Assembly: GCA_001303585.1 (NCBI GenBank)
Contig: LJTT01000005.1
Span: forward strand, 1-64,000
DNA length: 64,000 nucleotides
Direction of reading: 5' to 3'
Source of the DNA: Betaproteobacteria bacterium SG8_41
GTDB taxonomy: Bacteria > Pseudomonadota > Gammaproteobacteria > Burkholderiales > SG8-41
The position numbers were made by a program, and so were the translations under genes. The notes under the pieces were generated by a model. The model did not search any database. It saw nothing but the letters and a program-made list of their open reading frames with translations, and was not told the DNA's origin. Below are positions 45,199-63,030 of this stretch, one piece after another. The stretch's first letter is position 1, and every line of letters starts with the position of its first letter.

Positions 45199-45375
45199 TG
45201 TCGGACTTCGCCTGGTGCACAGGCTCCGCATGGTGCTGACAAGCCCATCGTTCCCGCCGATCGAGCGGCAGCTTGAACGCCCTGCGCGAGTCGGCGAGTT
45301 TGATCCGGGGCGGAGCGTTCCGATCAAGATGAGTTAGACTATCACCCCTCGGAATCATTCGCGTTGTGTTCTCAC

Positions 45376-45711
45376 ATGTTGGTAACCGACGGCCTCGTCG
45401 TCTTCTCGAAACGCGCCTGCCCCACCTGCTTCCTCATCGAGCCGGTCATGCAGCAGGTCGCCCGTTCGTTGCCGGCGTTCCAGGTAGTGTCGCAGGACGA
45501 CCCGGATTTTCCAGACAAGGTCGCAAATATCGTCGACGACCGCGAGCTGGACCAGTCCTGGCTCAACAACATCGAGGCGACACCCACCCTCGTGCGTTTC
45601 TCGCAAGGCCGCGAGGCGGAGCGGGTCGTCGGCTGGGACCGGGAGGGCTGGCGGCGCCTGACAGGCATTCGCGATCTGGCCGAGGGGCTGCCCGCTTTTC
45701 AGCCTGGGTGA
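45376..45711 (+). CDS. Thioredoxin-fold protein with CPTC active site
   Basis: 111 residues from the ATG at 45376. LVVFSKRACPTCFLIEPVMQ is a thioredoxin-type strand plus redox motif CPTC. IEATPTLVRFSQG holds the cis-Pro (TPT) of the fold, and a terminal helix follows. No signal peptide, so cytoplasmic. It is followed 24 bases later by a conserved 361-residue protein and then by a UGSC selenoprotein: an apparent three-gene redox unit. Confidence 0.8.
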   Translation: MLVTDGLVVFSKRACPTCFLIEPVMQQVARSLPAFQVVSQDDPDFPDKVANIVDDRELDQSWLNNIEATPTLVRFSQGREAERVVGWDREGWRRLTGIRDLAEGLPAFQPG

Positions 45712-45735: not shown

Positions 45736-46821
45736 GTGGCCGAGCGGCTGGAAGCGAAGCACCGCGGCGGTGCCGTGCTTGCTGCGCGCAAGATCGAGTA
45801 CGGCGACAACGACGACCCCGCGGAGATGTGCTACCTGCGCGGCTGGACGGACGGGCTGCCCGTCACGCCGCCGACCGATGTGCGGGTGATGCAGATGTTG
45901 ACCGGCACAAAACGCCGCCCGGATGAAATTGTCGGCAAGATTCCGCCTTATCTCGCCGAGTGCACGATCGAGAAGGTCGCGATCAATGCCGTGATGGCGG
46001 GATGCAAGCCGGAGTACCTCCCAGTGCTGCTTGCGGCGCTCGAGGCTGCGCTCGAACCGGTCTTCACGCTGCACGGTGTGCTGGCGACGACCTATTTCTC
46101 GAGCCCGATCATCATCGTGAACGGCCCGATCGCGAAGCGGATCGGGATGAATTCGGGCATGAATGCGCTGGGGCAGGGCAACCGGGCGAATGCGACGATC
46201 GGGCGCGCGCTCAATCTCATCGTGCAGAATGTCGGTGGCGGCCGCCCGGGCGAGGCCGATCGCGCCGCGCTGGGCGCGCCGAGCAAGTACACCCTTTGCT
46301 TTGCCGAGGACGAGTCGGATCCCGACTGGGAGCCGCTCTCGGTCGCGCGGGGTTTTCCGCGTGGCGCATCGACGGTCACGTTGTTCCAGGGACACGGCGT
46401 GGAGGCCTTCGTCGACCAGAAGTCGCGCTCACCCGAAGGACTCTCCCGATCGATTGCCATGTCGCTGGTCAAGATCGGACACACTCGGCTGACGCAGAGC
46501 GCGCGGGCGGTTTTCGTGCTCTCGCCCGAGCACTACGCCATCTACCGTGAGGCGGGATGGGACCGCAAGCGCATCGAGCGCGCACTTTATGAGGCGACCA
46601 TCCGTCCCGGCAGGGAAATCCTCGCGGGGCTCGATGGCGTGGGCGAAGGCGTGCCGGCAAGCCGGGCAGAGGAAATGGTTCCCAAGTTCCACGAGGACGG
46701 CTTGATGGTGGTGCGCGCGGGCGGCAAGGCAGGTTTGTTCTCGGCGATCCTGCCGGGCTGGCTCGCGGGACGTAACCGGCTCGAACTGCAGCCGGTTACG
46801 AAACAAATTCGTGACCAGTGA
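45736..46821 (+). CDS. Conserved protein of unknown function upstream of a selenoprotein gene
   Basis: 361 residues, GTG start. Compact and globular, without signal or membrane segments. Conserved-looking blocks: MCYLRGWTDGLPVTPPTDVR, MNSGMNALGQGNRANATIGR, LCFAEDESDPDWEPLSVARG and PKFHEDGLMVVRAGGKAGLF. A Cys in LAECTIEKVAINAVMAGCKP could be reactive. I cannot assign a family. The position between a thioredoxin-like protein and a selenoprotein suggests redox catalysis. Its stop codon TGA lies in the heptad array beginning at 46811. Confidence 0.7.
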   Translation: MAERLEAKHRGGAVLAARKIEYGDNDDPAEMCYLRGWTDGLPVTPPTDVRVMQMLTGTKRRPDEIVGKIPPYLAECTIEKVAINAVMAGCKPEYLPVLLAALEAALEPVFTLHGVLATTYFSSPIIIVNGPIAKRIGMNSGMNALGQGNRANATIGRALNLIVQNVGGGRPGEADRAALGAPSKYTLCFAEDESDPDWEPLSVARGFPRGASTVTLFQGHGVEAFVDQKSRSPEGLSRSIAMSLVKIGHTRLTQSARAVFVLSPEHYAIYREAGWDRKRIERALYEATIRPGREILAGLDGVGEGVPASRAEEMVPKFHEDGLMVVRAGGKAGLFSAILPGWLAGRNRLELQPVTKQIRDQ

Positions 46822-46925: not shown

Positions 46926-46940
46926 GACACCGGAGGTGTC
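46926..46940 (+). promoter_or_regulatory. Shine-Dalgarno site embedded in a perfect inverted repeat
   Basis: GACACC, GGA, GGTGTC. The ribosome site GGAGG spans the loop and right arm of this 6+3+6 hairpin, 8 bases before the selenoprotein ATG. Closed, the hairpin would hide the site. Confidence 0.5.
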
Positions 46941-46942
46941 TT

Positions 46943-47467
46943 ATGTGGATGCGTGATCCGACTGCTGAAACATCGTCCGTGAAGCGCCCGCGGCGGGCGC
47001 CGCCGGCTTCGCTCGAAGGTCTTACCGTCGGGCTGTTCGACATCGGCAAGACTCGTAGCGACGAATTCTTCAATCAGATCGAAAAACGCTTCACGGAGCG
47101 TGGACTCAAGGTCAAGCGTTTCGGCAAACCGACCAACGCAAAGGTCGCGACGCCGGAAAACGTGCAGAAGGTGGCGGATGAAGCCGATGTCGTGGTCATC
47201 GGCTTATCGGACTGAGGGTCATGCACGTCGTGCAGTCTGCACGACCTCATGAACTTCGATACGCGCGGGCTTCCGGGCGTCTCCGTCGTGACTCAGGCCT
47301 TTACCGACGCGGTCGAAAAGCAGTCGGGCGCGCTCGGTTTCGAGCCGGGCGTCGTCTATGTGCCGCATCCAATCCAGAACCGCACGCCCGAGGAGCTCGC
47401 GAAGATCGCGGACGATTGCGTCGAGCCCGTCCTCGCGCTGCTACAGGTCTCCACCAGGAAAACGTGA
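46943..47467 (+). CDS. UGSC-family selenoprotein (in-frame UGA decoded as selenocysteine)
   Basis: 174 residues when the TGA at 47213-47215 is read as selenocysteine (residue 91). Before it, a Rossmann-like half ends EADVVVIGLSD. After it come G92-S93-C94-T95-S96-C97, then SLHDLMNFDTRGLPGV and a C-terminal half PGVVYVPHPIQNRTPEELAKIADD. The frame continues unbroken to a second TGA at 47465. The UGSC motif defines a known selenoprotein family whose other members have CGSC. Start ATG with GGAGG. Function unknown, presumably thiol/selenol redox. Without recoding it would be a meaningless 90-residue stub. Confidence 0.85.
47216..47252 (+). promoter_or_regulatory. SECIS-like stem-loop just downstream of the UGA
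   Basis: A perfect 8-base inner stem GTCGTGCA/TGCACGAC (47227-47234 with 47238-47245) has a 3-base loop GTC. A lower stem TCATG/CATGA (47219-47223 with 47248-47252) is separated by short internal bulges. The loop is about 21 bases past the UGA, the distance seen in E. coli fdhF, with a G in the loop. All of it lies in the coding region, as bacterial SECIS elements do. Confidence 0.75.
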
Positions 47468-47652: not shown

Positions 47653-47688
47653 CTCGCGTTCCGCGTTAACAGGAGATTGCAGTCCATC

Positions 47689-48573
47689 ATGCGTTTAGTC
47701 ACTTTTTCTGATGACAAGGGCACGCGCGTCGGCGTGCATGACCCGGCATCCGGCAGCGTCGTAGACCTGTCGGCGGGCACGCGCCTCCCGCAGGATATGA
47801 ACGCTTTCATTGCGCTCGGCAAGAACGGACTGTCGCGCGCGCGACGTTCGGTGAGGAGCGGGGAGGGGCGTATTCCCTTCGACAGCGTCAAGCTGCACGC
47901 GCCGATCCCGCGTCCCGCGAAGAACATCCTGTGCGTCGGCAAGAACTATCACGATCACGCGCAGGAATTCCATGCAAGCGGTGTCGACGCCAGCGGCAAG
48001 GAAACCATCCCGGAAGTGCCAGTCATATTTACCAAGTGGCCCAACTCGGTGATCGGTCCCGGCGAGCCGATCCCGAGCGCGAATGACTATACGAACACGA
48101 CCGACTACGAGGGCGAACTGGCCGTGGTCATCGGGGACGGTGGGCGCCATATCAGCAAGAAGGACGCCCTCAGCCACGTGTATGGATATACGATCGTCAA
48201 CGATGTTTCGGCGCGCACCCTGCAAAACCGGCACCGCCAGTGGTTTCTCGGCAAGAGCCTCGACGGGTATTGTCCGATGGGGCCGTGCATTGTCACCGCC
48301 GATGAGGTGAAGGACGTCACGCAGCTGCAGCTTGTCACCAAGGTCAACGGCGAGCTGCGGCAAAGCGCTTTCGTGACCCAGCTCATCTTCGATATCCCGA
48401 CGCTTATCGAGACGATCTCGCGTGTGATGACGCTGGAGCCCGGCGATCTCATCGCTACCGGTACGTGCGCGGGCGTAGGCATCGGTTTTACGCCGCCGAA
48501 ATACCTGCAGCCCGGGGACAAGGTCGCGATCACGATCGAGCCCATCGGAACTCTCGAGAACCCTGTCGCCTAG
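47689..48573 (+). CDS. Fumarylacetoacetate hydrolase family protein (first copy)
   Basis: 294 residues from the ATG at 47689 (AGGAGA 12 bases upstream; a TTG at 47677 is the alternative). FAH-type metal site: Glu in TTDYEGELAVVIGDGG, with PAKNILCVGKNYHDHAQEF and TKWPNSVIGPGEPI before it. DYEGE and NDVSARTLQ blocks and LEPGDLIATGTCAGVGIGF follow. The family includes isomerases, hydratases and acylpyruvases acting on enol or 2-oxo acids. First gene of a run with a second FAH and a TctCBA transporter. Confidence 0.9.
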   Translation: MRLVTFSDDKGTRVGVHDPASGSVVDLSAGTRLPQDMNAFIALGKNGLSRARRSVRSGEGRIPFDSVKLHAPIPRPAKNILCVGKNYHDHAQEFHASGVDASGKETIPEVPVIFTKWPNSVIGPGEPIPSANDYTNTTDYEGELAVVIGDGGRHISKKDALSHVYGYTIVNDVSARTLQNRHRQWFLGKSLDGYCPMGPCIVTADEVKDVTQLQLVTKVNGELRQSAFVTQLIFDIPTLIETISRVMTLEPGDLIATGTCAGVGIGFTPPKYLQPGDKVAITIEPIGTLENPVA

Positions 48574-48623: not shown

Positions 48624-48723
48624 GCGACCGGTGACCAGTGACCGGTCACCGGGAAGAACGCAAGGAATACGCGGCTATTTACAGGTCAGAGGTCACGGGT
48701 CACAGGTCACGGGGCACAAATCA
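48624..48723. repeat. Heptad repeats, GTGACCG and GGTCACG words
   Basis: GCGACCG, GTGACCA, GTGACCG, GTCACCG at 48624-48651. CAGGTCA, GAGGTCA, CGGGTCA, CAGGTCA, CGGGGCA, CAAATCA run from 48682 right up to the ATG of the next gene, so they replace a normal ribosome site. Confidence 0.85.
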
Positions 48724-49679
48724 TGAAGCTAGTTCGATACGACAGAAATGGCGCGCTGCGCCTTGGGATGATAGATGGCGAGCACCTTGTCGACTTGCTC
48801 GACGCGTGCCCGACGGGAACGCCGCCTGCCGTCATCGCCGCAATGAGCGACATGACGCGGCTCATCGCGGCGGGCGAGGAAGGCCTCAAAGCGGCTGGCG
48901 CAGCACTTGCGGCATCGCGCGAGAGTGGTGGCGGCAGGATCCCGCTTGCGGGGGCCAAGCTCAGGGCGCCGCTCGATCCGTCGCTCATCCTTTGCAGCGG
49001 CGAAAACTACTGGGATCACCGCGACGAGAAGCCGGAGGTCACGCGCAAGGACCCCGAATTCTTCCTGAAAACAGGGCTCGGCGTGATCGGCCCGGGAGAC
49101 GAGATCATCCGCGACGAGCGGGTTACGCGGAAGCTCGATTACGAGACGGAGTTGCTGGTCGTGATCGGCAAGCCCGGACGGCACATACCGCGAGAGCGGG
49201 CGCTCGAGCACGTCTTCGGTTATTCGATTATGAATGACGTGACGGCGCGTGACCGCCAGGTGACATTGCGCCCTGACGGCTCCTCCGTTTACAACCTCGG
49301 GCCCGGGAAGAATTTCGACACCTGTGCGCCACTCGGCCCCTCGATCGTGACCCGCGACGAGATTCCGGACCCCCAGGCGCTGGACCTGAAGACCCTCGTC
49401 AACGGCGAGCTGCGACAGAGCAACTCCACCGCAAAAATGATCTGGGATTGCGCTCGCCTGGTCGAGTTCTTCTCGACATTCGTCACCTTGCAGCCGGGTG
49501 TGGTGATCTCGACCGGGACTCCCGGGGGCACGGCCTGGGGCACGGATCCGGAACTGGGCGGGAAGAAGCCGATGCGCAAGGACGTCGTTGCGCCAAAAGG
49601 CTACCTTCAGCCCGGCGACGTCGTGGTTTGCGAAATCGAACGCATCGGCCAGCTCGAAAATCGCGTGAAATCGGCCTGA
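48723..49679 (+). CDS. Fumarylacetoacetate hydrolase family protein (second copy)
   Basis: 318 residues. Metal-site block RKLDYETELLVVIGKPGRH, then VFGYSIMNDVTARDRQ and the long loop between AWGTDPELGGKKPMRK and YLQPGDVVVCEIERIGQLENRV. It differs enough from the first copy to act on another substrate of the same pathway. The start has no Shine-Dalgarno site: the upstream 40 bases are heptad repeat. Likely cotranscribed with the first copy and the Tct genes. Confidence 0.88.
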   Translation: MKLVRYDRNGALRLGMIDGEHLVDLLDACPTGTPPAVIAAMSDMTRLIAAGEEGLKAAGAALAASRESGGGRIPLAGAKLRAPLDPSLILCSGENYWDHRDEKPEVTRKDPEFFLKTGLGVIGPGDEIIRDERVTRKLDYETELLVVIGKPGRHIPRERALEHVFGYSIMNDVTARDRQVTLRPDGSSVYNLGPGKNFDTCAPLGPSIVTRDEIPDPQALDLKTLVNGELRQSNSTAKMIWDCARLVEFFSTFVTLQPGVVISTGTPGGTAWGTDPELGGKKPMRKDVVAPKGYLQPGDVVVCEIERIGQLENRVKSA

Positions 49680-49915
49680 AGGGCCTTTGCCGCTCCGAAT
49701 TCGGTAATTTGCCGTACCCGTATAGAATGGCGCTTGCTGCATCCCGAACGCCGGGGAGCGGAGCTTGAACAACAACCCGCGGCGAGGGGGTGGACCGATC
49801 GGGAAATTGCGGTGACCGTCGGGGTCGATTTCAGCCGGCCGACCGAAGGGTGGGCTGACTGCCCGACGATAGAGTGCATCACTTTGTTTTGTTTCCCAGA
49901 ACCAAGGAGGAGGTC

Positions 49916-50899
49916 ATGTTGATTCGCTTAGCCATATTTTCTGCTGTTTCCATTGCGCTGCTCGGCAGCGCGGCCGTTCAGGCGCAGGATGCCTACCCGA
50001 GCCGTCCCATCACGATGATCGTCGCGTTCCCGCCGGGAGGCGTGGCCGACAAAAACGCGCGGCCGACATCAGCCGCAATCGAGAAGGTGCTCGGGCAGCC
50101 GGTAACGATCACCAACCGGCCCGGGGCTGGCGGCGCGGTCGGCAATGCGGTCGTCGCGCATGCCAAACCCGATGGCTATACCATCGGCATGCTTCTCTCG
50201 AGCGTCTCGGTCATCCCGGCGGCGGACGAGCTATTCAATCGCAAGCCGGCCTACACGCTGGATGAACTGAGAACCATCGCCCTGATTTCTGCCGACCCGA
50301 TGATCCTCATCGTGGCTGCGAAAAGCAACTGGAAGTCGGTCAAGGATCTGGTCGACGACATCAAGAAGAAGCCAGGACAGTACTCTTTTTCGTCTTCCGG
50401 CATCTATGGCGCCCTGCACATGCCCATGGAAATGTTCTTCCACGCGGCGGGCGGCCTCAAGCTGCGTCACGTTCCGACCAAGGGTGGCGCACCGGCCCTG
50501 AGACAGCTGCTCGGCGAGCACGTGGATTTCACGGCGGGCGGTCCGGCGGCGATCGGTCCGCATATCAGGAGCGGCAAGCTGCGCCCGCTGGCAAGCTGGG
50601 GCGAGAATCGGCATCCGGCCTATCCGAAGGTCCCGACCTTCAGGGAGCTTGGCTACGATATCGTGTACTACATCTGGGCCGGGATGTTTGCGCCCGCAGG
50701 CACGCCGGATTCCGTGATCAAGGTTCTGCGTGATGCCACGCGCACGGCCGTAGCTTCAGCAGAGTTCAAAAAGGCCATGAAAAACCTGAACTCGCCAATT
50801 GTCTACAAGGACGCGCCCGAGTTTCACAAATACTGGCGCGATGACGCCACGCGTCTCGCTGCCATCGTCAAGATGGTCGGCAAAGTGGAAACGAAGTAG
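49916..50899 (+). CDS. Tripartite tricarboxylate transporter substrate-binding protein (TctC/Bug family)
   Basis: 327 residues from the ATG at 49916 (AAGGAGGAGG upstream). Signal peptide IRLAIFSAVSIALLGSAAVQAQ. Bug-family hallmarks: YPSRPITMIVAFPPGG, PGAGGAVGNAVVAHAKPDGYTI and a GAPALRQLLGEHVDFTAGG block. Binds a carboxylate in the periplasm and presents it to the TctAB membrane pair encoded next. In Burkholderiales such proteins are numerous. The substrate is not predictable but probably links to the FAH enzymes. Confidence 0.92.
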   Translation: MLIRLAIFSAVSIALLGSAAVQAQDAYPSRPITMIVAFPPGGVADKNARPTSAAIEKVLGQPVTITNRPGAGGAVGNAVVAHAKPDGYTIGMLLSSVSVIPAADELFNRKPAYTLDELRTIALISADPMILIVAAKSNWKSVKDLVDDIKKKPGQYSFSSSGIYGALHMPMEMFFHAAGGLKLRHVPTKGGAPALRQLLGEHVDFTAGGPAAIGPHIRSGKLRPLASWGENRHPAYPKVPTFRELGYDIVYYIWAGMFAPAGTPDSVIKVLRDATRTAVASAEFKKAMKNLNSPIVYKDAPEFHKYWRDDATRLAAIVKMVGKVETK

Positions 50900-59016: not shown

Positions 59017-59976
59017 ATGCCGGTGCATACCCCTTCTCGTCAGCCGATTTCGTCGCCGATTTGCGACAGGGTTTGCGGCGCGCTTCTGGCACTCGCTCTC
59101 GCCACGCCGATTGGGGCGGCCGAACCCGTTGTTCCCTACGTCCCGACCCCGCAGGCGGTCGTCGACCGCATGCTCGAGATAGGCAACGTTGGATCCAGTG
59201 ACTATCTCATCGATCTTGGCTCGGGCGACGGCCGCATCGTGATAACGGCCGCCAAACGATTCGGCACCCGGGGTTTCGGAGTAGACATCGATCCCGAGCG
59301 CATAGAGGAGAGTAACGAGAACGCTCGCCGCGCGGGCGTTGCCGACCGCGTCGCCTTCTATCGGCGCGATCTGTTCGAGACCAACCTGTCCGAAGCCACG
59401 GTGCTCACGATGTACCTGCTTCCGCGGATCAATCTCGAGTTGCGTCCGAGACTGCTCTCACTCAAGCCCGGCACGCGCATCGTGTCGCACGACTTTTCAA
59501 TGGACGACTGGCAGGCGGACCAGCACGTCGTGCTGGACGCGGGGGGCAAATTTGGCGGCTCGGGCGGCCGCAGCGACATCTATCTCTGGGTGGTCCCGGC
59601 CCGGGTCGCGGGCCGCTGGACCTGGAGGTCCACGGTCGCGGACAAGGAGCAGTCCTACGAGGTCGCGCTGCAGCAGCGCTACCAGGTCATCTCTGGCACG
59701 GCCCGCGTTGGCGGCCGCTCAGTCAAACTCGACCGAGCGCGGGTGCGGGGCGATGAGCTGCACCTGGAGTTCACGATTGACATCGACGGGGCCCGCGTCA
59801 GGCATGCCCTGACCGGGAAGGTCGATGGCGACGATGTCTCGGGTGCGGCGATGCTCTCGGGCGAACGCCTGGCGTCGCGGCGCGACTGGACCGCACGACG
59901 CGTGGCGCGGGCCGCGGTGGCGACCGATGACGCGGGGCTGCGCCGGTACGGCGCCCACCGGGTGGCGCTGCACTGA
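59017..59976 (+). CDS. Exported methyltransferase-like protein, paralogue 1 of 4
   Basis: 319 residues, AGAGGAG ribosome site. A signal peptide (core FATGFAARFW-like reading is out of frame; in frame: ALLALALATPIGAAEP) precedes the shared block VPYVPTPQAVVDRMLEI, then motif I LIDLGSGDGRIVITAAKRFG, an acidic post-I (FGVDIDPERIEE), YLLPRINLELRPRLLSLKPGTRIVSHDFSM, and a C-terminal 150-residue strand-rich domain. The core resembles seven-strand SAM methyltransferases of the FAM173/DOT1-like group. The predicted export makes SAM supply a problem. Paralogue of the next three genes. Confidence 0.78.
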   Translation: MPVHTPSRQPISSPICDRVCGALLALALATPIGAAEPVVPYVPTPQAVVDRMLEIGNVGSSDYLIDLGSGDGRIVITAAKRFGTRGFGVDIDPERIEESNENARRAGVADRVAFYRRDLFETNLSEATVLTMYLLPRINLELRPRLLSLKPGTRIVSHDFSMDDWQADQHVVLDAGGKFGGSGGRSDIYLWVVPARVAGRWTWRSTVADKEQSYEVALQQRYQVISGTARVGGRSVKLDRARVRGDELHLEFTIDIDGARVRHALTGKVDGDDVSGAAMLSGERLASRRDWTARRVARAAVATDDAGLRRYGAHRVALH

Positions 59977-60938
59977 TGGCGTATTGCGCGTCCGTGAGTT
60001 CGGTCCTGACGCGTTACGCGGGGAGCGTGCTGCTCGCTGCGGGGCTTGTGACTGCTGCGCTCGGCCAGGACTATGGCGACGTCCCCTACGTCCAGACGCC
60101 CACGAACATCGTGGACACGATGCTGAATCTGGCCAAAATTCGTGCCGATGACTACGTGATCGATCTTGGCTCCGGAGACGGACGGATGGTCATCACCGCG
60201 GCAAAGAAGTATGGCGCGCGCGGTTTTGGCGTGGAGCTCGATCGGCGCCTGGTCCGGCTTGCCAACGCCAGCGCGGCGAAGGCCGGGGTGGCCGACCGCG
60301 CGGTGTTCTACCAGCGCGATCTGCACGAAACCGACGTCAGCCCTGCCACCGTTGTCACGCTGTACCTCCTTCCGGAAGTGAATCTCATGATCCGCGCGAA
60401 GCTACTTGACACGCTGCGCCCGGGCACGCGCGTCGTCTCGCACGACTACGACATGGGCAGGTGGCAGCCGGATTATCAAACGGAACTGGAGGCGCCCGGG
60501 AAGACGGTCGGCGCGGTAAAGACGAGCAAGATTTTCTACTGGATGGTGCCGGGAAATGCGGCGGGACGCTGGTACTGGAAAGTGACGCAGGACGCCAAGG
60601 CGCCGGCGTTCGAATTGATACTCGAACAGACATTTCAGAGGCTCGCCGGCACGCTCACGATCGGTGGGGAGCGCGCGCAGATGGAAACTGTTCAGTTGGA
60701 GGGAGACCGGATACGCCTTGTGGCGTCGAGCGAGAAGGGCTCTGCACGGGCGCGCTACGAATTCTCCGGAAAGATCGTCAATCACGCGATCGAAGGCAAG
60801 GGCCATGTCATTCGCGGCCAGGAGCGGCACGCGGTCTCGTGGAATGCGGCGCGTATCGAATCTTGGGATCCCCGGCATTTTGCCCTGCGAGGTGTCCCGC
60901 CTTGCAAAGAGATGGGCGTGCCCTGCGGCGCCCGCTGA
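59976..60938 (+). CDS. Exported methyltransferase-like protein, paralogue 2 of 4
   Basis: 320 residues. Its ATG overlaps the previous stop (TGATG), so translation is coupled. Signal peptide core GSVLLAAGLVTAALGQ. Core: VPYVQTPTNIVDTMLNLAK, motif I VIDLGSGDGRMVITAAKKYG, FGVELDRRLVRLAN, YLLPEVNLMIRAKLLDTLRPGTRVVSHDYDMGRWQ. The DYDMGRWQPD end is shared by paralogues 2-4. The C-terminal domain (about 190-320) is strand-rich and unassigned. Probable periplasmic or membrane-tethered enzyme, or a repurposed SAM-fold protein. Confidence 0.78.
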   Translation: MAYCASVSSVLTRYAGSVLLAAGLVTAALGQDYGDVPYVQTPTNIVDTMLNLAKIRADDYVIDLGSGDGRMVITAAKKYGARGFGVELDRRLVRLANASAAKAGVADRAVFYQRDLHETDVSPATVVTLYLLPEVNLMIRAKLLDTLRPGTRVVSHDYDMGRWQPDYQTELEAPGKTVGAVKTSKIFYWMVPGNAAGRWYWKVTQDAKAPAFELILEQTFQRLAGTLTIGGERAQMETVQLEGDRIRLVASSEKGSARARYEFSGKIVNHAIEGKGHVIRGQERHAVSWNAARIESWDPRHFALRGVPPCKEMGVPCGAR

Positions 60939-60951
60939 GCTTCGACGCTCC

Positions 60952-60986
60952 GAGTTCCAGGTTTAAGGTTTCAGGTTCAAAGTCTA
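60952..60986. repeat. Heptad repeat, AGGTTTA word (5 units)
   Basis: GAGTTCC, AGGTTTA, AGGTTTC, AGGTTCA, AAGTCTA. It fills the gap before paralogue 3 and leaves that gene with no visible ribosome site. Confidence 0.8.
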
Positions 60987-60993
60987 AAGCCCA

Positions 60994-61911
60994 ATGGTCA
61001 AGCCTGCATCAGTCGCGAATCGCTGCCGTCGAGTTGTTAGCGCGGTCTCGTTCCTCGCTGCTGTTGGCGGCGCAGGATCGGCGCTCGGGCAGCCGGCGCT
61101 TGATGTGCCCTATGTGCCGACAGCCCCCAGTGTCGTGGAGGCCATGCTCGACATCGCAAAGGTTGGCCCGCAGGATTACGTAGTGGACCTGGGGTCGGGG
61201 GATGGGCGTATCGTCATTGCCGCAGCCAAGCAGCGTGGCGCGCGCGGTTTCGGCGTCGATCTGGACGAGTTTTTGGTCGCGCGTGCCCGGGACGCGGCCG
61301 ACCGGGCCGGCGTTGCGGAAAGGGTCAAGTTCTTTGCGGGCAACCTTTTTCTCACCGACATCTCGCGAGCCACGGTGCTCACCATGTATCTCTTTCCGTC
61401 GATCAACCTTCAATTGCGGCCGCGACTGTTCGCGGAGCTCAAGCCAGGCACACGCATCGTGTCGCATGACTTCGACATGGCGCAGTGGCAACCGGATGCC
61501 GAGCTCGTCATTCCGGTTCCCGACAAGCCGTACGGCGCGCCCGAGAGCCGCGTTTTCCTTTGGGTCATTCCTGCCAACGCCGCCGGCGCCTGGCGCGGCA
61601 GTATCAGCACGGACAGCGGACCGGTCGACTTCGAGGCTGAGATCCAGCAGACGTTCCAGGCGCTGTCAGGCACGGCGCGCGTCGGCGCGGCGGGTGGACG
61701 CCTTGGTGGCGGCACCTTGCGTGGCGATGCGTTGCGTTTTGCCCTCACCACGGGGGTGGATGACCGGGGCATGCGGCATGAGTTCGAGGGGCGCGTGAGC
61801 GGGGACACCGTTTCGGGGAAGGTGAAGACGGGCGAGGGCGAGGCTCGGGACTGGCGCGCAAGCCGCATCCGGCGCGCAGCCATCAATATCACGCCACCGC
61901 CGACGGATTAG
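60994..61911 (+). CDS. Exported methyltransferase-like protein, paralogue 3 of 4
   Basis: 305 residues. Signal peptide RVVSAVSFLAAVGGAGSALGQ. Same core: LDVPYVPTAPSVVEAMLDIAK, VVDLGSGDGRIVIAAAKQRG, FGVDLDEFLVARA, YLFPSINLQLRPRLFAELKPGTRIVSHDFDM. The C-terminal domain differs more. As in the others, the first strand and the LGSGDGR loop are complete, so SAM binding is possible. The gap before it holds only a heptad repeat. Confidence 0.77.
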   Translation: MVKPASVANRCRRVVSAVSFLAAVGGAGSALGQPALDVPYVPTAPSVVEAMLDIAKVGPQDYVVDLGSGDGRIVIAAAKQRGARGFGVDLDEFLVARARDAADRAGVAERVKFFAGNLFLTDISRATVLTMYLFPSINLQLRPRLFAELKPGTRIVSHDFDMAQWQPDAELVIPVPDKPYGAPESRVFLWVIPANAAGAWRGSISTDSGPVDFEAEIQQTFQALSGTARVGAAGGRLGGGTLRGDALRFALTTGVDDRGMRHEFEGRVSGDTVSGKVKTGEGEARDWRASRIRRAAINITPPPTD

Positions 61912-61944
61912 AGCGTGTCTCAAAAGATCAGAAACTACTTGGGC

Positions 61945-62080
61945 CGCAGGTAAACGCAGATGAACGCAGGTCACACAGTAAACAGGACGCAGAAAACAGT
62001 AAATTGGGAATAGCCACACGCGGCCCGCTGTTCGCGGAATTCAACATTCAACACTCAAAATTCATCGTTCATCACTCACA
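61945..62080. repeat. Decad array plus two heptad arrays
   Basis: CGCAGGTAAA, CGCAGATGAA, CGCAGGTCAC (61945-61974). ACAGTAA, ACAGGAC, GCAGAAA, ACAGTAA (61975-62002). ATTCAAC, ATTCAAC, ACTCAAA, ATTCATC, GTTCATC, ACTCACA (62039-62080). Two of the arrays abut without a gap. All lie between paralogues 3 and 4. Confidence 0.88.
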
Positions 62081-62100
62081 CGTGATTCGGGGGGCTTGAT

Positions 62101-63030
62101 ATGAAATTAACGACCCAGTTGAAGCGAATAGTTGCAGTGGCGCTGCTGCTCGCGGCGCCGGGCGTCGCCGCCCAGGAAGGCGAAGGGGATGTCATTTATG
62201 TGCCGACGCCGCAGGAAGTCGTCGAGGAAATGCTGAACATGGCGAAGGTCGGCCCCGACGACTACATCATCGATCTGGGCTCTGGGGACGGGCGTATTGT
62301 TATCACGGCGGCGACAAAGCATGGGGCACGCGGCTTCGGCGTAGACCTCGACCGCGTCCTGCTGAAGCGGGCGAACGAGAACGCGCGAGTGGCGGGCGTG
62401 GCCGATCGCGCCCATTTTATCGAGCAGAATTTATTTGAGACGGACCTTGCGCCCGCCACGGTGATCACCAGCTACCTGCTCCCGGAGATGAACCTCAAGC
62501 TGCGACCAACGATTCTGGGGCTAAAGCCGGGCACGCGCGTGGTGACGCACGATTATGATATGGATGACTGGTTCCCGGACGCGCAGAAGGTTATCCTCGT
62601 GCCGGGCAAAGAGGTAGGCGACGAAGGCAAGAGCTACGTCTTCCTTTATGTCGTGCCCGGTAAGATGGCGGGCCAGTGGCTATCCCAGATCGAACATGGC
62701 GGCAAGGCGGTGCCGTACGATTTCTCCTTCGACCAGGAGTTTCAGTTCGTCGAAGGCATGTTACGCGTAGGAAAGCGCGAAGGAAAAGTTCGCGAATTCA
62801 AGCTCGTGGGGGACCGCTTCGAGTTCACCGCACGGCTTATAGTTGAAGGGCGGTTAATTGCGCATCGCTTCAGCGGGAAGCTGAAAAATGATCTCATCGA
62901 GGGCACTGTCACGCTTGGCGACGGCAAGGCGCAGCGCAGCCAGGCATGGACAGCACGTCTGGTCAAGGCCAAAGAGGTCAGCTACGGCGGCGATCGTCCG
63001 GCTCGGCAGTACCGGCGCGTGACGCAGTGA
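62101..63030 (+). CDS. Exported methyltransferase-like protein, paralogue 4 of 4
   Basis: 309 residues; GGGGGG precedes the ATG. Signal peptide LKRIVAVALLLAAPGVAAQEG. Core: VIYVPTPQEVVEEMLNMAKVG, IIDLGSGDGRIVITAATKHG, FGVDLDRVLLKRAN, YLLPEMNLKLRPTILGLKPG, THDYDMDDWFPD. Motif I Asp and the Gly loop are present. A C-terminal domain of unknown type follows. The stop codon overlaps the GTG of the following permease gene by 4 bases, so the two are probably cotranslated. Confidence 0.8.
   Translation: MKLTTQLKRIVAVALLLAAPGVAAQEGEGDVIYVPTPQEVVEEMLNMAKVGPDDYIIDLGSGDGRIVITAATKHGARGFGVDLDRVLLKRANENARVAGVADRAHFIEQNLFETDLAPATVITSYLLPEMNLKLRPTILGLKPGTRVVTHDYDMDDWFPDAQKVILVPGKEVGDEGKSYVFLYVVPGKMAGQWLSQIEHGGKAVPYDFSFDQEFQFVEGMLRVGKREGKVREFKLVGDRFEFTARLIVEGRLIAHRFSGKLKNDLIEGTVTLGDGKAQRSQAWTARLVKAKEVSYGGDRPARQYRRVTQ

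Follow-up and report, generated by a model that had tools for sequence, protein, structure and literature searches.

A predicted UGSC-family selenoprotein gene with a coding-region hairpin and a partner gene in Betaproteobacteria bacterium SG8_41

In a 64,000-nucleotide stretch of the genome of Betaproteobacteria bacterium SG8_41 (contig LJTT01000005.1, positions 1 to 64,000; hereafter the window), a reading frame starting at 46943 meets a TGA at 47213 and continues in frame. Is this UGA a stop codon that has split a gene, or is it decoded as selenocysteine (Sec), and what might the product then do? The original prediction took the frame to be open save for this one TGA and the UGA to be residue 91 (Sec91) of a UGSC-family selenoprotein; the frame was confirmed in the sequence, with a normal stop at 47465–47467. 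Features of the locus are listed in Table 1.

Table 1. Features of the UGSC locus in the window
Feature	Position	Strand	Basis
Thioredoxin-like gene with a CPTC motif (start may be 45376)	45364..45711	+	TIGR01068 and PF13098, below cut-off
Partner gene (361 aa) of an unnamed family that in other loci lies next to UGSC or is fused with it	45736..46821	+	Gene order, profile searches
Likely ribosome-binding site for UGSC, GGAGG	46932..46936	+	Sequence; inference
UGSC-family selenoprotein gene (predicted), 174 residues including Sec91	46943..47467	+	PF24696 and NF041046 matches
In-frame UGA, predicted to be read as Sec91	47213..47215	+	TGA in 29/29 orthologous loci (L060–L088)
Span of the lower stem TCATG/CATGA beneath the SECIS hairpin	47219..47252	+	Fold and bases
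Predicted bacterial SECIS upper stem-loop, 8 bp with GUC in the loop, or 7 bp with AGUCU	47227..47245	+	Fold, conservation, bSECIS model
Fumarylacetoacetate-hydrolase-family (FAH) gene, downstream of UGSC	47677..48573	+	PF01557, E 2.3e-71
Second FAH-family gene	48723..49679	+	PF01557, E 4.2e-60
TctC-type solute-binding protein	49874..50899	+	PF03401, E 7e-65

The UGSC gene and its in-frame UGA

The frame comprised an ATG at 46943 with GGAGG six bases 5′ of it, 90 codons, the single TGA (47213–47215), 83 codons and a terminal TGA. A codon-usage gene caller, trained on the codon usage of genes neighbouring the UGSC gene, called coding sequence on both sides of the internal TGA (46979–47215 and 47249–47467). 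The read-through product scored above the cut-off of Pfam family PF24696 (128.6 bits, E 3.4e-37, cut-off 25) and just below that of the NCBI equivalog NF041046 (124.3 bits, cut-off 125, alignment 2–146 of 147); because the latter score was marginal, the gene was filed under the Pfam family and not under the equivalog. The U/C-G-S-C motif was present at the aligned place. By these matches, 46943–47467 is one gene, a new member of the known UGSC selenoprotein family, with which it shares motif, length and the alternation of Sec and Cys. Ordinary gene calling splits genes of this type in two, as on plasmid pFER4 of Paracoccus ferrooxidans, where the UGSC gene is annotated as two hypothetical proteins.

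If the gene were a pseudogene or contained a sequencing error, the UGA would be a true stop or a fault of the assembly, and the 3′ half would be a relic. UGA is a stop codon, the same gene also ends in TGA, and the assembly is a draft of 147 contigs, all of which would suit this explanation. Against it, all 29 orthologous loci (L060–L088, 71–80% identical), which come from other assemblies, had the TGA at the identical Sec91 codon, and both halves of the product were kept as protein. These loci were 29 of the 44 places with at least 53% identity beyond the window's genome, the window copies (L058 and L059) being excluded; the orthologue L084 had a second TGA close to the match end. Each of the remaining 15 places contained a TGA, and one of them a TAA as well. 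A few UGSC matches of the lineage had no stop at all, e.g. G035:C18:335422-335925 (146 bits).

Fourteen plasmid-borne homologues were compared at the Sec site. TGA was present in four (Acidovorax T1 and three Paracoccus), CGSC in eight and CSTC in two; the alignment with CGSC homologues that the original prediction had proposed was thus obtained from eight of the 14, and Cys occupied the site in all ten non-TGA forms. In a table of the 2008 GOS survey, UGSC is entered with 255 Sec forms and 21 Cys forms (PMC2398784). If the UGA were read as an ordinary amino acid (for example as Trp under code 4, or through near-cognate decoding), such a regular replacement by Cys would be hard to account for, as would the use of TGA as terminator by the same gene. 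The original prediction had also named homologues with neither Sec nor Cys at this position as evidence against it. The 29 orthologues and the plasmid-borne forms agreed with Sec or Cys, but two distant fused UGSC-partner homologues, from Sporomusa termitida (L120, 5281–7005) and Vibrio europaeus (L121, 5323–7008), had Met at the Sec place in a by-eye alignment and lacked UxxC. Since these two were remote and had lost both redox residues, they have no bearing on the UGA of the window; they indicate that the partner can occur without this redox pair. Both fused genes were near aconitase X and DUF126 genes.

The source assembly (G000; draft, 3.75 Mb, 147 contigs, 92% complete) was searched for the selenocysteine machinery, as the original prediction had proposed, and selA, selB, selC and selD each gave a match above the cut-off of the family. 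On contig C114, SelA (E 1.6e-157), SelB (E 1.8e-128) and tRNA-Sec (77 bits, cut-off 47) were found within about 5 kb. The SelD match (E 1.6e-126) was broken only by a TGA (GGG-U-GCK; L010), so SelD itself was predicted to be a selenoprotein. In 14 control genomes, SelA, SelB and SelD each exceeded the cut-off in two, and the tRNA-Sec search was loose, giving weak matches in all 14 and matches over the cut-off in five; a second tRNA-Sec match in G000 reached 48.4 bits against the cut-off of 47. Weight was consequently placed on the 77-bit match adjoining selA and selB. Six UGSC matches were present in G000, each with exactly one TGA, and so was at least one protein resembling PrdB in which the UPNC motif includes a TGA (L255). 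SelB was found in 67 of the 74 genomes of the source organism's family at E 1e-60; at this threshold none was seen in G060, which has 35 UGSC matches, perhaps owing to an assembly gap. On plasmid pFER4 (L112, 5989–12507), selB lies ~3.3 kb from a UGA-bearing UGSC-partner pair.

The hairpin downstream of the UGA

A perfect 8-bp stem, GTCGTGCA (47227–47234) and TGCACGAC (47238–47245), encloses the loop GTC (47235–47237), and a 5-bp lower stem is formed by TCATG (47219–47223) and CATGA (47248–47252). All three elements had been described in the original prediction and were present in the sequence; its distance of about 21 bases from the UGA held for the loop (20 nt) but not for the stem, which begins 12 nt after. 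Folding returned this hairpin with an ordinary energy (z −1.19; 24 of 200 shuffles of 47207–47270 folded equally well). Folding energy was accordingly unconvincing as proof of the hairpin, and synonymous-recoding and covariation tests were used instead; these revealed conservation with compensatory changes.

Among synonymous recodings of this stretch, 2 of 300 contained a bSECIS-like hairpin. Across 30 orthologues (the window and the 29 loci), the mean share of the modal codon at codons +5 to +10 was 0.994, vs 0.690 in 75 other conserved codon columns. A larger comparison used 97 distinct 42-base stretches out of 128 TGA-bearing UGSC genes, mostly high-scoring (the window, 29 orthologous loci, 34 further search loci, 60 paralogues and four plasmid forms). 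GU occupied positions 23–24, counted from the T of TGA, in all 97, vs a mean of 5.9% and a maximum of 14.4% in 1000 trials of synonymous recoding with the family's own codon usage, and the seven stem pairs were complete in 82 of the 97, vs a mean of 7.5 and a maximum of 19 in the recodings. The loop codon was AGT in 90 of 90 Ser cases and TGT in seven of seven Cys cases; outside the loop, the same genes used AGT for 42 of 816 Ser codons and TGT for 22 of 132 Cys codons. Pair 21–27 was C-G in 65 sequences and G-C in 32, pair 16–32 was T-A in 96 and A-T in one, and pair 19–29 was T-A, G-T or T-G; pair 15–33 was unpaired in 15 sequences. None of the ten Cys homologues kept the GU loop, and five of them still formed six or seven of the seven pairs; because the amino acids are alike, the stem by itself fails to separate Sec from Cys forms, and only the GU loop separates them. 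By these tests the hairpin is an RNA-level signal under selection.

The bSECIS model calls for a loop of 3–9 nt with G within the first two places, an upper stem of 4–16 bp, a distance of 16–37 nt from the UGA and a minimum free energy of at most −7.5 kcal/mol (PMC13188914). All four constraints agreed with the hairpin of the window (loop AGUCU, 7–8 bp, 18–19 nt, and −21.6 kcal/mol for 47213–47262). Like the SECIS of E. coli fdhF (NC_000913), it lies within the coding region directly past the UGA, with the apex TGCAGTCTGCA corresponding to TGCAGGTCTGCA of fdhF; the apex of the window is one base shorter, and the stem below the apex differs.

The same pair positions failed in divergent copies from a relative rich in UGSC genes (G050, described below), whose motifs include GSCTPAVLRAS. 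A general bSECIS scan of the 54 UGA-bearing copies of G050 detected a hairpin in 48, vs 18.5 expected; the six without one were L217, L220, L221, L223, L228 and L233. In the GSCTPAVLRAS subfamily (L195, L222, L224, L225 and others), an apparently differently placed hairpin, GCCCGC-CGUGUU-GCGGGC, with GU in the loop was seen.

These results bear on both alternatives raised above. Synonymous sites frozen in the hairpin and complete Sec machinery in the genome add to the conserved TGA and protein halves in speaking against a pseudogene or an error, which is extremely improbable; the original argument that recoding fits better than a pseudogene was thus upheld. Reading of the UGA as an ordinary amino acid is likewise very improbable: the GU loop was present in 97 of 97 UGA forms and in none of ten Cys forms, and tRNA-Sec, SelA, SelB and SelD are encoded. 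Predicted decoding of the UGA as Sec91, the claim of the original prediction, is near certain, being supported by the 29 TGA-bearing orthologues, the sel genes and selection at the RNA level.

The partner gene and multiplication of the pair

The partner gene, the copy-number expansion and the relationship to GrdB described below were outside the scope of the original prediction. The family of the partner has a length of ~345 aa. The 361-aa protein of the window was without a match in Pfam or NCBIfam at E 1e-3. Searches with the profile or with members of the family returned nothing below E 0.01 from PDB sequences, Pfam and NCBIfam, nothing below 0.02 from Pfam and NCBIfam when E values as high as 1 were admitted, and nothing from PHROGs at 1e-3. 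Scans of viral contigs for the UGSC and partner families found no relative.

A partner gene stood beside six of six UGSC genes of G000, on either side, and beside UGSC in 22 of the 29 orthologous loci. The seven loci without a partner in 1.5 kb were L065, at a contig edge, and six that all belonged to genus g9; a 16.5-kb stretch around one g9 orthologue likewise contained none that could be seen. The g9 orthologues with no partner gene nearby were L068, L069, L071, L072, L080, L081 and L100 (G060). In G050, 54 of the 58 UGSC matches had a partner within 150 nt. By coordinates, the partner flanked UGSC in 13 of 14 plasmid records, which covered bacteria (Paracoccus, Acidovorax, Variovorax, Roseovarius, Neorhizobium, Arthrobacter and Embleya) and haloarchaea. 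When three loci were read through, UGSC and partner formed one frame, broken once, at the Sec-site stop. Copy numbers of the two families were correlated with r 0.988 (0.969 with genome size removed) over the 63 genomes with full counts, of 74; the other 11 were left out, the partner search having reached its ceiling of 28 scored candidates in them. Because these genomes are kin to one another, the p-value of the correlation is no true probability. An alignment of 19 partner sequences contained 23 invariant columns, including Cys90 of a MAGC motif; an AlphaFold model of the partner (pLDDT 33, from four close sequences) was not used. It is very probable that UGSC and its partner form a functional unit.

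In the 2008 GOS survey, UGSC was reported fused with a domain called "Unknown_1" (PMC2398784). Like the fused pairs seen here, that protein joins UGSC to a conserved unknown domain (PMC2398784), and Unknown_1 is a candidate, likely, for the same family as the partner. Within the available sections of the cited UGSC literature, this fusion apart, the partner, the thioredoxin genes and the many paralogues were not found, and no novelty is claimed. The UGSC family, known since marine surveys and little understood, is now seen with a near-constant partner family; it is this family, together with the unusually strong expansion of the pair, that gives the locus its interest.

UGSC was found in all 74 genomes of the source organism's family, with one to at least 40 matches each and at least 1,081 in total, some of them fragments. 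Outside that family it was rare (five of 398 phylum genomes sampled, the window's own among the five). G050, a draft genome of 5.7 Mb (98% complete, 2% contamination), contained 58 UGSC matches, 54 of them with TGA at the Sec site (L192–L245). Of these 54, 52 had no other stop in the match and 51 had exactly one TGA by the search listing; L241 looked frame-shifted. Over 60 or more aligned positions, identity to the nearest paralogue had a median of 64% and a maximum of 74%, and since no copy was over 75% identical to another, the copies are not strain duplicates. Some related bacteria would in this way devote dozens of selenocysteine codons to one UGSC-partner pair.

A survey from 2016, which covered over 5,200 organisms, lists UGSC with the figures 26 and 33 (PMC5029168). 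The largest whole bacterial selenoproteomes cited in a review comprise 57 and 63 genes (PMC13188914); the 54 UGA-bearing UGSC copies of G050 come near these numbers, and its selenoproteome is possibly among the largest bacterial ones. The selenoprotein-richest organisms are described there as predominantly anaerobic, with Thermodesulfobacteriota, Synergistota and Clostridia named, and the UGSC-rich lineage is not among the groups named in the available part of that source (PMC13188914).

A probable relationship to GrdB and a proposed function

Eleven of 15 UGSC proteins (five of the 15 being orthologues of the window gene) matched TIGR01917, the model for selenoprotein B of glycine reductase (GrdB), with E values no higher than 0.1; the best was 2.2e-5, and all were far below the cut-off. 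The UGSC protein of the window gave E 0.0045. An hhalign comparison of UGSC with four GrdB sequences of the lineage gave a probability of 83.9% (E 7.7e-6, 96 columns) with Sec aligned on Sec. When the same protein was scanned against Pfam at E 1e-3, PF24696 alone was returned, without the GRDB domain PF07355, which stops just short of the Sec. From these profiles, UGSC is probably homologous to the Sec-bearing C-terminal domain of GrdB. Like UGSC, the selenoproteins B of glycine, sarcosine and betaine reductase (GrdB, GrdF and GrdH; PF07355) have Sec-x-x-Cys (or Ser) in the homologous C-terminal stretch, and thioredoxin-system genes near some UGSC loci recall glycine reductase; unlike GrdB, UGSC is without the 340-residue N-terminal part, and its partner, unlike that of GrdB in glycine reductase, is not GrdE-like. 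The partner was tried as a homologue of GrdE, the pyruvoyl-type partner, against a lineage GrdE-like alignment and as a homologue of GrdB, and neither was supported (hhalign 0.2% in each case). A partner without similarity to GrdE or GrdB implies that the UGSC complex is no plain glycine reductase.

GrdE-GrdB pairs occurred separately in the same family of genomes (L246–L249), with UGA in UGTCTRC or UGTSTRC; a GrdE-like gene preceded three of the grdB genes and followed the fourth (L249), that of L246 being confirmed by PF09338. D-proline reductase offers a further comparison, PrdB being, like UGSC, a small Sec subunit with UxxC (PMC13188914). Profile similarity of PrdB to UGSC was, however, weak (hhalign 5.6%), and the lineage has separate PrdB-like UPNC proteins. 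Short proteins of this kind (L250–L260) were seen in the same family of genomes, with UGA in UPNC in six of the six read.

An AlphaFold model of UGSC (low confidence, mean pLDDT 57.4), used for the order of strands and helices only, was a Rossmann/flavodoxin-like sandwich with the Sec past the third strand. The best structural matches of the model were lumazine synthases, sugar-binding and LacI-type domains, and flavodoxins (Z up to 10.4); PDB profile searches with UGSC and partner gave nothing below E 0.01. In the 2008 GOS survey a thioredoxin-like fold was proposed for UGSC (PMC2398784), and the low-confidence model speaks against it, though not decisively. The question of fold bears on another account of the product, as a general thiol or peroxide oxidoreductase of thioredoxin-like fold with the partner as its protein substrate. 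The UxxC motif and the thioredoxin-like neighbour gene favour such an enzyme, but the modelled position of the Sec in the Rossmann/flavodoxin-like sheet and the profile link to GrdB do not, and the dozens of paralogues in some genomes, in the loci surveyed often near transport and catabolic genes, would better suit substrate diversity than a housekeeping redox role. We regard this account as unlikely, though the most substantial of the alternatives.

The genes around UGSC were surveyed. The CPTC gene preceding the partner in the window matched TIGR01068 (E 2.9e-4, 21 bits, cut-off 96.8) and PF13098 (E 5.9e-5, 23.8 bits, cut-off 27), in both cases below the cut-off, and a relative of it was present within a 1.5-kb flank in 18 of the 29 orthologous loci. 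In Arthrobacter the order was trxB-trxA-partner-UGSC; trxB followed the UGSC-partner pair in Roseovarius and lay upstream in Variovorax, but it was annotated beside only three of ten annotated plasmid loci with UGSC. Other neighbours of UGSC were TctC and TRAP uptake genes and members of the FAH, CoA transferase and PEP mutase/isocitrate lyase families (CoA and keto-acid chemistry). The cluster of the window's TctC contributed 42 proteins in 15 of 19 UGSC-centred loci, a count to be read with the proviso that the lineage may be TctC-rich anyway.

The same-strand run of two FAH genes and TctC 3′ of UGSC would also suit a selenium switch, in which low selenium gives a 90-residue product or ribosome drop-off that regulates the downstream genes. 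Paralogues and plasmid loci differ, however, in the order of the genes near UGSC, the C-terminal half is conserved as protein, and the Cys forms need no switch; this possibility is improbable. The preferred reading is a selenoprotein acting with its partner. The substrate of glycine reductase is bound by GrdB, and the complex is reduced by thioredoxin (PMC13188914). From this analogy, together with the thioredoxin, uptake and CoA/keto-acid neighbours, we infer a thioredoxin-fed selenol reductase of small organic acids or CoA esters.

As proposed, SelB bound to the hairpin at 47227–47245 would bring in Sec-tRNA for decoding of the UGA at 47213. The product would be a protein of 174 residues with the active-site motif U91-G-S-C94, a presumed relative of the Sec-bearing C-terminal stretch of GrdB. 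UGSC would act with the adjacent partner protein, whose Cys90 is invariant and whose role may be to hold the substrate or to select it. Once bound, the substrate would be cleaved reductively through attack by the Sec selenolate. Sec would thereby end up in a selenenyl sulphide with Cys94 (or a Cys of the partner), which a thioredoxin-like protein, e.g. that encoded at 45364–45711, would reduce. The substrate would probably be a small organic acid, free or as the CoA ester, brought in by TctC-type uptake and processed by an FAH-type hydrolase, and paralogue number would follow substrate diversity.

These parts differ in strength. The explanation as a whole, a Sec-recoded UGSC protein with the mechanism just outlined, is judged probable from sequence. 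The reductive-cleavage chemistry is a tentative hypothesis that falls a little short of an even call, and the assignment of the substrate as a small organic acid or CoA ester is, taken by itself, doubtful. Opinion is evenly divided on the wider claim that UGSC and partner constitute an undescribed class of two-part selenoenzyme, i.e. a thioredoxin-fed, GrdB-like reductase with a non-GrdE partner, multiplied in one Betaproteobacteria-like family for many substrates, with selenoproteomes at or beyond the largest reported.

Elsewhere in the window (59017–63030), four tandem, mutually similar genes of 305–320 aa with methyltransferase-domain matches (PF13847 and PF08123) were observed.
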